In this document: positions 11,001 to 15,801 of the stretch, in pieces
How the letters are laid out: every line of letters starts with the position of its first letter
How positions within the stretch are numbered: position 1 is the first letter of the stretch
Origin: Gammaproteobacteria bacterium
GTDB lineage: Bacteria > Pseudomonadota > Gammaproteobacteria > Arenicellales > UBA868
Reading direction: 5' to 3'
Assembly (NCBI GenBank): GCA_014239255.1
Contig: JAAZZE010000017.1
Span: forward strand, 3,665 to 40,997
Length of the DNA stretch: 37,333 nt
The notes under the pieces: model-generated
What the model saw: only the letters and a program-made list of their open reading frames with translations
The model's database searches: none
What the model was told of the DNA's origin: nothing
Program-made: the position numbers and the translations under genes

Positions 11001-12320
11001 AAGCGCGCCGACGGTCGTAATATCGTAGTTTCTCGTTCCGCCGAGTTGGTGATTCACGATCAGCATGGTGTCGATCGTGAACGTTATCGTATTCCCTATG
11101 GCGCCGAACTGACGGTTAATGATGGTGATACCGTGACTGGGGGAAGTATTATCGCCTCCTGGGACCCGCACACCCATCCGATTATCAACGAAGTGGGTGG
11201 CAAGATCCGCTTCGAGAGCATGGTCGAGGGCGTGTCGGTAGCGGAGCAGGTCGATGAACTCACTGGGTCGAGTACTCACCTCGTCATAGATCCTAAGAGT
11301 CGACGTGGCACCAGTACTGATATAAAACCGACCATTGAATTGGTTGATGGAAAAGGCAAGCCAAAGGTTTTGCCAGGAAGCGAGTCACCGGCAAGATACC
11401 AGATGCCGCCGGGTGCCTCTATCGTGGTTGTCGATGGGGCGCAGGTGGGCGTTGGTGAGGTGTTAGCCCGAATTCCTCAGGAAGGCTCCAAGACGCGCGA
11501 CATTACCGGAGGCTTGCCCCGTGTGGCCGAGCTATTCGAAGCGCGTAAGGCCAAGGACCCAGCTATCCTGGCAACACACAGCGGGGTGATCTCGTTCGGT
11601 AAGGAAGTCAAAACCAAGGTGCGCCTGGTAATCACTGATGAGTTGGGTGAACCACATGAGATGGCTATTTCCAAAGGCCGATCTATCAGTGTCTTCGACG
11701 GTGAACATATCGACAAGGGTGACATCATTGTTGAAGGTGGGTTGACTGCCAGCGATATTCTGGAGCTCAGAGGCCGGAAAGAGCTTACCGACTATATCGT
11801 CAACGAGGTTCAGGAGGTGTACCGGCTGCAGGGCGTCAAGATCAACGATAAGCATATTGAAGTGATTATTCGTCAGATGTTGCGACGTGTCCGGATAGTT
11901 GATCCAGGCGACAGCCGTCACCTTGAAGGTGACCAGGTTGAACGTTCTGCACTGCTGGAGGCGAACGATCAGTTGGTAGCTGAGGGCAAAACGCCGGCCA
12001 CCTTTGCGCTCATACTTCTGGGAATAACAAAGGCTTCGCTGAGTACCGACTCATTTATCTCAGCGGCTTCATTCCAGGAGACAACTCGGGTGCTGACCGA
12101 GGCCTCCATGCAGGGTAAGGTGGACAGATTGCGCGGGCTCAAGGAGAACGTGATCGTTGGCCGTCTGATTCCTGCGGGTACTGGTCTGGCATACCATGAG
12201 GAGCGCCGTCGCCGTCGCGAGGAGCAGGTCAGTGGGAAAGCAGAAATTGCTGAGTTGACTTTTGCCAGTAGCGCCGAGTCAAAAGACGAGGCCGCGCCTG
12301 CTGAAGCGGTGCAGGGTTGA
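8100..12320 (+). CDS. rpoC: DNA-directed RNA polymerase subunit beta'
   Basis: Beta' carries the catalytic magnesium and the clamp. The product is 1406 aa (E. coli 1407). The N-terminal zinc-binding domain has C71, C73, C86 and C89; the active-site motif NADFDGDQ places the three Mg-binding aspartates at D461, D463 and D465; the second zinc site uses C815, C889, C896 and C899. The bridge helix/trigger loop region shows [16 protein letters not shown]. Large lineage-specific inserts are not apparent, since the length matches E. coli almost exactly. GAGGAAAG upstream of the ATG is a good ribosome binding site. The stop codon lies inside the 5' arm of a downstream hairpin. Confidence 0.99.
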
Positions 12321-12350
12321 GGTCCGGTTTAAGGCCTCAACCCAGAAAAT
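12314..12350 (+). terminator. Hairpin at the end of rpoC, possible weak terminator
   Basis: GGGTTGAGG (12314-12322) pairs perfectly with CCTCAACCC (12335-12343), and an inner CC/GG extends the stem across a one-base bulge. The rpoC stop codon TGA (12318-12320) is inside the 5' arm. The 3' flank AGAAAATTTCCC has only a short T run, so termination may be partial or the hairpin may only protect the mRNA end. It sits about 20 bp before the rpsL promoter, a sensible place for the rplKAJL-rpoBC unit to end. Confidence 0.5.
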
Positions 12351-12362
12351 TTCCCGGAAATG

Positions 12363-12391
12363 TTGACAAAAAACCGAGTTCTGCCTAGAAT
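12363..12391 (+). promoter_or_regulatory. Strong sigma70 promoter for the str operon (rpsL)
   Basis: A perfect -35 TTGACA (12363-12368) is separated by exactly 17 bp from TAGAAT (12386-12391; five of six consensus bases). The following bases CGCCGCCC (12392-12398) form a GC-rich discriminator, the hallmark of stable RNA and ribosomal protein promoters that are repressed by ppGpp and DksA. Transcription should start near 12398-12400, giving an rpsL leader of roughly 58 nt. This is the clearest promoter in the window. Confidence 0.88.
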
Positions 12392-12456
12392 CGCCGCCCT
12401 TTGCTGGGTTTGGTGATTGTGGGCTGAAAGCGGGGCCTAAGAGCGAGAAAAAGAAG

Positions 12457-12831
12457 ATGCCAACGATTAATCAACTGGTCAGAAAGCCTCGGGTACGCCG
12501 GACTCAAAAGTCGAATGTACCAGCACTGGCGGCCTGCCCACAAAAGCGCGGTGTATGTACGCGGGTATATACCACTACACCGAAAAAGCCGAATTCGGCT
12601 TTACGCAAGGTGGCTCGGGTACGTTTAACCAATGGCTTTGAAGTAACCAGTTACATCGGTGGCGAAGGGCACAATCTCCAGGAGCACTCGGTTGTGCTTA
12701 TCCGGGGCGGCAGGGTAAAGGATCTGCCGGGTGTGCGCTATCACACCGTACGGGGGACATTAGATACATCAGGCGTAGGCGATCGGCGACAGGGCCGCTC
12801 GAAATACGGGGCGAAACGACCGAAGTCGTAA
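12457..12831 (+). CDS. rpsL: 30S ribosomal protein S12
   Basis: S12 sits at the decoding centre and controls accuracy; it is the classical target of streptomycin resistance. The product is 124 aa, as in E. coli. The [12 protein letters not shown] loop has K43 and the [14 protein letters not shown] loop has K88 and D89 (numbered from Met), so the usual resistance positions are wild type and the aspartate modified by methylthiolation in E. coli is present. The gene is first behind the 12363-12391 promoter. Its ribosome binding site is only a loose purine run. It is followed by an unusually long spacer before rpsG. Confidence 0.99.
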
Positions 12832-13189
12832 CGTAAACAAATACACGGGATTTGGGACTGGTTGCTCCAGGGCGACTAGTAGTAATTAAACCGTAAATAG
12901 GCCGGTATAGCTGACTGGCCACGGTGATAAAGGCGACCTTGCCAGAATAAATAAAGGCCGCCACAGAAGTCGCGAAGGCAGCATCACGCTGTTAGCGACA
13001 AAAAGCTGTCTCACCGTATGATTTCGCTCCGGTGGCGAAAGCCGCTGGTGCGAACTGACTGTTGCGCCTGTTCGATGGGCGATCAAGACAGTTGCTACAG
13101 GGATTGGTAAAAAGCCGGTGCGCCGGCCCAGAAACTGAACCGTCTGCCCCGGAGTGGCAACGGTTCTCTGATAGTGGAACTGAAAATAG
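12832..13189 (+). other. 358-bp structured spacer between rpsL and rpsG, no gene recognised
   Basis: This is the largest non-coding stretch in the window. In E. coli the rpsL-rpsG gap is about 100 bp and contains the S7 translational operator. Here a series of stem-loops can be drawn on the + strand: 12900-12920 (7 bp, one G-T), 12932-12962 (9 bp with one mismatch), 13022-13040 (TTTCGC/GCGAAA), 13058-13092 (ACTGT/ACAGT plus CGCC/GGCG), 13114-13127 (GCCGG-TGCG-CCGGC) and 13137-13166. A 30-codon frame from ATG 13018 to the stop at 13108-13110 lacks a recognisable product. No terminator and no convincing promoter were seen. The region is best read as a long structured leader of rpsG. Confidence 0.6.
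13137..13166 (+). promoter_or_regulatory. Strong hairpin just upstream of rpsG, candidate S7 operator
   Basis: GAACCGT (13137-13143) pairs with ACGGTTC (13160-13166), and TGCC (13145-13148) pairs with GGCA (13156-13159) across a single bulged C, giving an 11-bp stem closed by CCGGAGT. It ends 23 nt before the rpsG ATG. In E. coli, S7 represses the str operon by binding the rpsL-rpsG intercistronic RNA, so this is the natural candidate here. The match is positional; I did not establish similarity to the E. coli S7 site. Confidence 0.4.
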
Positions 13190-13660
13190 ATGCCCAGACG
13201 TCGTGAAGTCCCAAAACGGATAATCCTGCCGGATCCGAAATTCGGTGATGAGACCATTGCCAAATTCATCAATGTCATGATGAAGGACGGCAAGAAGTCG
13301 ATTGCTGAACGCGTCCTGTACGGCGCTTTAGACACTATTCATGGCCGGGGTTCATCTGAACCGCTCGACGTGTTCTACCAAGCGCTCGAGAATATTCGAC
13401 CCGTCGTCGAGGTAAAAAGTCGGCGCGTGGGTGGCGCAACCTACCAGGTACCCGTCGAGGTTCGCCCTAGTCGCCGCAATGCGTTGGCCATGCGTTGGTT
13501 GGTTGAAGCCGCCCGCAAACGGAATGAGAAATCGATGACCGACCGGCTGGCGGGTGAATTGATGGATGCTGCAGACAAACGTGGTGGTGCTGCAAAGAAA
13601 AAAGATGAAGTACACCGAATGGCCGAAGCCAACAAAGCGTTCTCTCATTTCCGTTTCTGA
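13190..13660 (+). CDS. rpsG: 30S ribosomal protein S7
   Basis: S7 is a primary assembly protein of the 30S head, lines the E site, and in E. coli represses the str operon. The product is 156 aa, the length in most bacteria. It begins [19 protein letters not shown] and contains the [19 protein letters not shown] hairpin that contacts 16S rRNA. GGA at 13176-13178 is a modest ribosome binding site, 11 nt from the ATG. A long structured spacer precedes it; fusA follows after 44 bp. Confidence 0.99.
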
Positions 13661-13704
13661 CTAAAAGATCAACTCCCCGAAACTCTGAATACGGATCCTT
13701 GACA

Positions 13705-15801
13705 GTGGCACGAAGAACCCCTCTTGAGCGTTATCGCAACATCGGCATCATGGCCCACATCGATGCGGGAAAGACTACGACTACGGAGCGCATTCTTTTT
13801 TATACCGGTATCTCTCATAAGATCGGTGAAGTTCATGAAGGAAACGCCGTCATGGACTGGATGGAGCAGGAGCAAGAGCGCGGTATCACCATTACCTCTG
13901 CCGCAACTACCTGTTTCTGGAGCGGTATGGACCAGAATTATGCAGAACACCGCATCAACATTATCGATACTCCTGGCCATGTTGATTTTACTATCGAAGT
14001 AGAGCGTTCATTAAGAGTACTCGACGGCGCTGTTGGAGTTTTCTGTGCGGTTGGTGGCGTTGAGCCACAGTCCGAAACAGTATGGCGCCAGGCGGATAAA
14101 TACAGCGTGCCCCGTCTGGCGTTTGTCAACAAGATGGATCGAACCGGCGCTGATTTTTTTCGTGTGGTTGACCAGATCCGGGACCGTCTCGGCTCGAATG
14201 TCGTTCCGATACAGGTACCTATCGGAGCTGAAGATGCTTTCCAGGGTGTTGTTGATCTGATCAAGATGAAGGCGATTTACTGGGATGAGGAAACTCGGGG
14301 CGCCAAGTTCGAAGAACGTGATATCCCCGATGACATGTTAGAGCAGTGTACTGCCCTGCGTGAGCAAATGCTTGAAGCGGTTGCTGAAGTCAGCGAGGAA
14401 ATGATGGAAAAGTACCTTGAGGAAGGCGACCTTTCCGCGACCGAAATCAAGGACGGCCTGCGACAGCGGACCATTGCTAACGAGATAGTTCTCGTAACTT
14501 GTGGCTCAGCGTTCAAGAACAAGGGTGTTCAGGCCATGCTCGATGCGGTTATCGATTTCATGCCCAACCCAACTGAGGTCCCCGCCATTCGTGGGATTCT
14601 TGAAGATGAAGAAACCGAGGAAGAGCGACTGGCATCGGATGATGCGCCCTTTGCCGCTCTGGGCTTTAAGATCATGACTGATCCATTTGTAGGCCAGCTG
14701 GTTTTTTTCCGCGTGTACTCGGGGGTCGTTAATTCAGGCGACAGCATCTACAACCCAGTGAAAGGAAAGAAGGAACGTATTGGCCGTATTTTGCAGATGC
14801 ATGCCAACTCGCGCGAAGAAATAAAGGAAGTTCGGGCTGGCGACATCGCTGCAGCTGTTGGCCTTAAGACCATCACAACTGGGGACACACTGTGCGACCC
14901 TAGTAAAGTGATTACGTTGGAGCGTATGGAGTTTCCTGAGCCGGTTATCTCGCAGGCTGTGGAACCTAAGACCAAAAGCGATCAGGAAAAACTCGGCGTT
15001 GCGCTGAGCAAACTTGCCCAGGAAGATCCTTCCTTCCGGGTGCGGACTGACGAAGAGTCCGGGCAGACGATTATCTCAGGTATGGGTGAATTGCACCTGG
15101 AGATTATTATCGACCGGCTGCGTCGCGAGTTCAGCGTTGATGCCAATATCGGTAAGCCCCAAGTAGCCTATCGTGAAACCCTGAACGCGTCAGTCGAGCA
15201 GGAGCATAAGTACGCCAAGCAGACCGGCGGCCGGGGCCAGTATGGCCATGTTTACCTAAGGGTAGAGCCGCAGGAGCGCGGCGGTGGTTTCGAATTTGTG
15301 GATAAGATCAAAGGTGGCGTCGTGCCCCGTGAGTATATTCCAGCCGTTCAAAAGGGCGTGGTCGAGGCCATGGGGTCCGGGATAGTTGCCGGGTATCCGG
15401 TGATCGATGTAAAGGTCACGCTGTACGATGGCTCCTACCACGAGGTGGATTCATCGGAGCACGCCTTCAAGGCAGCCGCTATCCAGGCCTTTCGTGAGGC
15501 CAGCCGAAAAGCAAAGCCCACATTACTCGAGCCGATTATGCGGGTCGAGGTCGTCACTCCCGAGGAATATATGGGGGGTGTTACGGGTGATCTGAACTCG
15601 CGCCGCGGCATGATTTCCGATATGGAAGATGTTCCTGCCGGCAAGATTGTTCGGGCCGAGGTTCCGCTGGCGGAAATGTTCGGTTATGCGACATCGTTGC
15701 GTTCCGCATCACAAGGCCGTGCCACCTATTCAATGGAATTCAGTCAGTACCTTCCAGCACCAAGCAGCATCACCGAGGTGGTGATGAAAAAGGCCAGTTA
15801 A
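13705..15801 (+). CDS. fusA: Elongation factor G
   Basis: EF-G is the GTPase that drives translocation of tRNA and mRNA and, with RRF, ribosome recycling. The product is 698 aa (E. coli 704). The G domain shows G1 [12 protein letters not shown] (residues 17-28), switch [13 protein letters not shown]3 DTPGHVDF and G4 NKMDR; the C-terminal domains show GGRGQYGHV and [18 protein letters not shown] chose GTG at 13705 ([15 protein letters not shown]), which matches the family N-terminus and has GGA at 13693-13695 with 9-nt spacing. An in-frame TTG at 13699 lies only 3 nt from that GGA. This is the canonical fusA in its str operon context. Confidence 0.98.

Follow-up and report, generated by a model that had tools for sequence, protein, structure and literature searches.

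The window analysed here is a 37,333-nt stretch of gammaproteobacterial DNA in which the stop codon of rpsL (TAA, 12829-12831) and the start codon of rpsG (ATG at 13190) are separated by an extended spacer:

12832-13189, forward strand: rpsL-rpsG intercistronic region, 358 nt, containing a conserved element

This region is present once in the window's own genome. The original prediction described it as a 358-bp spacer without a recognisable gene, and we agree: no conserved open reading frame is apparent in 12832-13189, and the idea of a hidden gene was dropped because the longest stop-free stretches of relatives disagree in both frame and length. No intrinsic terminator of the kind that defines an attenuator leader was found in the gap, and the search for an internal promoter returned one weak match only (9/12), which by eye is not conserved.

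The long rpsL-rpsG gap is a trait of the source family, an uncultured gammaproteobacterial family for which we used 33 genomes, with rpsG found in 26. All 26 genomes with rpsG on a contig have a gap of 325-400 nt, compared to 14-201 nt at the loci examined outside the family (same order and other Proteobacteria).

The spacer had also been called hairpin-rich, and folding supports this description. The folding energy of the gap is -134.2 kcal/mol compared to -111.1 +/- 5.3 kcal/mol for dinucleotide shuffles (z = -4.37), and none of the 100 shuffles equals it. Alignment of the 26 gaps reveals a block of around 122-130 nt that stands out from its flanks by much stronger conservation. This core, with a mean fold z of -4.1 in 22 relatives, consists of a hairpin (P0) followed by a three-way junction (P1/P2/P3):

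12888-13017, forward strand: conserved core RNA (P0 hairpin and three-way junction P1/P2/P3), described by covariance model R1
12890-12894, forward strand: ACCGU upstream of P0, of which ACCG is invariant in 22 aligned sequences
12890-12894, forward strand: hypothetical alternative pairing of the same ACCGU with (A)CGGU of the P1 5' strand, mutually exclusive with P1
12900-12920, forward strand: P0 hairpin, 6 bp (12900-12905/12915-12920), loop UAUAGCUGA; 3 of 6 pairs change on both sides
12921-12927, forward strand: P1 5' strand ACGGUGA, partner of 13011-13017; CGGUG is invariant in 22 aligned sequences
12932-12962, forward strand: P2 hairpin (12932-12939/12955-12962); 6 of 8 pairs change on both sides, and 8 of 8 when the divergent genus g5 is included
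12963-12968, forward strand: junction J2-3, ACAGAA, nearly invariant
12969-12999, forward strand: P3 hairpin, composed of P3a (12969-12973/12995-12999) and P3b (12978-12982/12988-12992)
12974-12977 and 12993-12994, forward strand: P3 internal loop GAAG/UA, between P3a and P3b
13000-13010, forward strand: junction J3-1, AAAAAGCUGUC, a nearly invariant strand
13011-13017, forward strand: P1 3' strand UCACCGU, from the covariation analysis of the core

The core of the window scores 136.7 bits against R1 (E = 5.6e-33), the window being among the sequences used to build the model.

As the original prediction had proposed, we aligned the spacers of relatives and tested them for covariation, using a MAFFT alignment made without structure input and leaving out genus g5. 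The pairing of the core is kept in 96.4% of cells (100% for P3a and 94% for P3b) and 16 of the 36 pairs change on both sides, a result matched by none of 500 shuffles. Sliding the partners by 1-3 columns as a control lowers the pairing to 27-48%, and RNAalifold independently predicts P0, P1, P2 and P3. We also applied a phylogeny-preserving null, a home-made procedure in the style of R-scape that places the same substitutions randomly on the family tree (21 sequences). Under this null, 3 of 36 pairs reach E < 0.05, and 10 pairs have p < 0.025 where around 1 is expected.

Genus g5, the most divergent of the family, was also left out when building R1. The model recovers all four g5 copies in the same gap, with E values of 3e-6 to 3.5e-5 (226 kb searched). 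With g5 added, 20 of 31 pairs change on both sides, in an alignment fitted to R1. Because P1 is invariant in 22 of the 26 sequences, its support comes mainly from g5, where the two strands appear as GUAA opposite UUAC; P3 is the part best kept in g5 according to the R1 alignments. Positions 12888-13017 thus form a conserved, covarying structured RNA that is always located in the rpsL-rpsG gap.

Two further pairings within the core were considered and rejected. A pseudoknot between AGCUG of J3-1 and UAGCU of the P0 loop is possible from the letters but weakly supported: it pairs in nearly all cells, yet its positions are mostly invariant or change on one side, and the signal is not significant. 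RNAalifold also proposes a pairing of J2-3 with J3-1 (CAG/CUG), which competes with this pseudoknot and is not kept in g5.

Outside the core, the gap contains further hairpins:

12857-12880, forward strand: 5' hairpin (ACUGGUUGC/GCGACUAGU) from the centroid fold, not strongly conserved
13023-13054, forward strand: P4 hairpin just 3' of the core, from folding of relatives
13137-13166, forward strand: last hairpin before rpsG (GAACCGU.C.UGCC/GGCA.ACGGUUC; 11 bp, one bulged C), from folding and alignment

Many relatives have a hairpin of other sequence at the position of 12857-12880, and the mean fold z of the 5' part of the gap is -1.6. Likewise, most relatives folded have a stem about as far from the core as P4, and its sequence differs greatly between them. 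The 3' part as a whole is structured on average (mean z = -2.4) and not conserved in sequence. The original prediction had placed its emphasis on the last hairpin. Its geometry is exactly as described then, an 11-bp stem with one bulge at 13137-13166, 23 nt before rpsG. The emphasis was the weak point: this hairpin shows poor conservation and can be aligned in the closest relatives only, and the constrained part of the gap is 12888-13017.

Next, we searched for the element in other genomes. Exactly 26 of the 33 family genomes, those carrying rpsG, have a strong match to R1, one in each, and the seven family genomes without rpsG on a contig have none. Across the order, 26 of 109 genomes are positive, all of them within the source family. 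The sample of the class (369 genomes) gives no match besides the window itself, and the sample of the phylum (398 genomes) gives, besides the window, one match at chance level (genome G521, E = 0.004). This match is inside coding DNA, and we take it as chance. The element is therefore held to one family in the order, class sample and phylum sample scanned, with the proviso that very divergent copies may be missed by the stricter filters of the larger scans. Weaker second matches are seen at locus L138 (G006:C44:2620-2706; E = 0.016, 23 bits) and in genome G015 (E = 0.8).

We compared the core with described RNAs of this operon and of ribosomal protein genes. Scanning the window with Rfam 15 at gathering scores identifies a tRNA at 368-440 only, outside the gap; with E values up to 10, nothing credible is found in 12200-13900 or in ten family loci. 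In E. coli, S7 binds the rpsL-rpsG intercistronic region and represses only the rpsL-coupled translation of rpsG (PMC10931766). The gammaproteobacterial S7 operator and the core share the operon, the rpsL-rpsG position and a structured mRNA before rpsG. Nonetheless, the canonical operator motif AGUAAGG...CCUGAA is found in none of the 33 family loci, while 34 comparison loci have it. In these loci the gaps are mostly around 80-160 nt, compared to 325-400 nt in the source family, where the three-way-junction fold is different and the core lies far from the start codon. We therefore rejected an E. coli/Pseudomonas-type S7 operator as the identity of the element. Three loci from other families of the order (L028, L029 and L030), with gaps of 90-147 nt, contain neither the canonical S7 motif nor the core element, which suggests that S7 control may differ between families of the order.

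The nearest description in our literature search, which returned no S7 leader of the form of the core, is that of the Pelagibacter rpsL motif, from 'Cand. Pelagibacter ubique' (Meyer et al. 2009, PMC2704228). According to the description of the motif there, it belongs to the str operon and has three stems around a junction whose J2-3 is conserved, its partner is not known, and it likewise comes from one marine lineage and from marine metagenomes. Unlike the core, it sits between rpoC and rpsL, with only occasional occurrences before rpsG or fusA, and has a bulged P1; this comparison draws on the published description of the motif. The cyanobacterial rpsL-rpsG region is also structured and located before rpsG, and its similarity to the part of 16S rRNA that S7 binds has been reported (Meng et al. 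1989, as cited in PMC10931766). Leaders for S15 have distinct folds in different phyla (PMC4137082). These and a set of 20 candidate leaders (PMC7247131) share with the core that they are leader RNAs found via covariation and position; a search of the text of PMC7247131 gives no S7 or rpsG candidate. With a conserved, covarying RNA upstream of rpsG, consistently in one operon, the element fits the general kind of ribosomal leader, and this kind is known; for this lineage-specific core RNA, no description was found. The source family has a well-defined, alignable RNA in its rpsL-rpsG gap with a structure distinct from that of the known operator.

The original prediction had left a choice between an expanded S7-responsive leader and a distinct structured RNA. 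The second half is supported, since the RNA is conserved, covarying, limited to one family and not of the S7-operator type. For the first half, S7, the product of the next gene, is the most likely ligand purely on position and precedent; a 16S-like S7 site is not demonstrated by the sequence. When the core is compared with the 16S rRNA of a member of the order (L140), the S7 domain takes first place among 139 windows, with three short matches. With the source family's own 16S rRNA (L144), the S7 domain is not first and the short matches fade, and we therefore do not claim 16S mimicry. In a similar alignment test, six S7 operators of known type are mostly no better than shuffles. The 16S sequence used first in the mimicry test (L141, from G014:C209) looked foreign to the source family; its 3' end is clearly unlike that of L144 (G030), and by eye it looks like a contaminating contig.

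We infer that the core is regulatory and acts in cis, and that it probably helps regulate the cell's own production of ribosomes and elongation factors. Our preferred reading, held with moderate confidence, is a cis-acting, family-specific leader RNA for rpsG-fusA-tuf with S7 as the likeliest putative ligand. The least likely explanation is a neutral or decaying spacer. Free variation does characterise the first 56 nt of the gap and much of its last 172 nt, and the view of the original prediction that such variation would argue for neutral DNA largely holds there. It clearly fails for 12888-13017, where neutrality is contradicted by the covariation and by the recovery of the held-out copies, and we consider this explanation for the gap practically negligible. 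It is unlikely, to a far lesser degree, that the gap is a constitutive processing or stability element that acts without a ligand, as a roadblock or a landing site for RNase, parting the rpsL message from that of rpsG-fusA-tuf and setting the ratio of the two. A large structured gap far from the start codon would suit such a role, as would hairpins of changing sequence 3' of the core and the lack of a terminator. A mere barrier would have no need, however, for unpaired junctions that hardly vary and an internal loop that does not vary at all; these instead suggest a specific partner.

The partner could be S12, EF-G, EF-Tu or another ribosomal protein rather than S7. The gap precedes the genes rpsG-fusA-tuf together, and the Pelagibacter motif, as described in PMC2704228, provides a three-stem junction in the same operon with no known partner; S7 is nevertheless the sole regulator described at the rpsL-rpsG position in the review PMC10931766, and we find a leader for another protein quite improbable. 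A junction with conserved unpaired strands also looks switch-like, as does the choice of the P1 5' strand between two partners, one excluding the other, in all 22 core sequences. Riboswitch classes are usually found before genes for metabolism or transport, and in several lineages. The element, in contrast, is present in a single copy per genome and solely before a translation gene, and the alternative pairing is not kept in g5, making a riboswitch for a small molecule or ion very improbable. The chances are similarly slim, and if anything slimmer, for a trans-acting small RNA transcribed or cut from the gap: the core folds compactly and on its own, well away from the start codon, but it occupies one locus only, the same operon gap in every family member, and the gap offers only the one weak promoter-like match (9/12).

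Returning to a cis-acting leader that responds to S7, we propose how it might work. P0 and the three-way junction would expose J2-3, J3-1 and the GAAG/UA loop of P3 as the likely binding surface. Surplus S7, in excess of 16S rRNA, would bind the core and thereby lower the output of rpsG and the genes behind it. The 3' end of the core is located 130-220 nt upstream of the rpsG start. At this distance, the core is unlikely to block the ribosome-binding site directly, and a gap of 325-400 nt makes rpsL-coupled translation of rpsG unlikely as well; the distance thus argues against the coupled-translation mechanism of E. coli. Together with the lack of a terminator, it favours, as a speculative readout, altered cleavage or stability of the mRNA, or refolding over a long range, rather than a direct block of coupled translation.

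For the refolding, the P1 5' strand would pair with either the upstream ACCG or the downstream UCACCG. In all 22 core sequences, the pairing with ACCG is formed by the nascent prefix, and in the full core the P1 pairing is favoured by around 2-6 kcal/mol in all but one of the 22. The letters of ACCG and UCACCG are invariant in those sequences and thus show no covariation for the predicted switch, and the divergent genus g5 does not keep the upstream pairing. The P1 5'-strand switch is accordingly put forward as a hypothesis. More tentatively, and with some doubt on our side, the element may represent a new structural class, in which a far-upstream three-way junction replaces the S7 operator in one family, and two exclusive pairings of the P1 5' strand let S7 or another ligand control the operon without translational coupling. 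Such a leader would add one case of a ribosomal operon that has an unrelated RNA for its control in a single lineage; should S7 bind the core, it would also provide a test of how flexible recognition by S7 is.

Finally, the gap between rpoC and rpsL contains a near-consensus sigma-70 promoter at 12363-12391 (TTGACA, 17 nt, TAGAAT; 11/12), which suggests a separate promoter for the str operon in the source organism.
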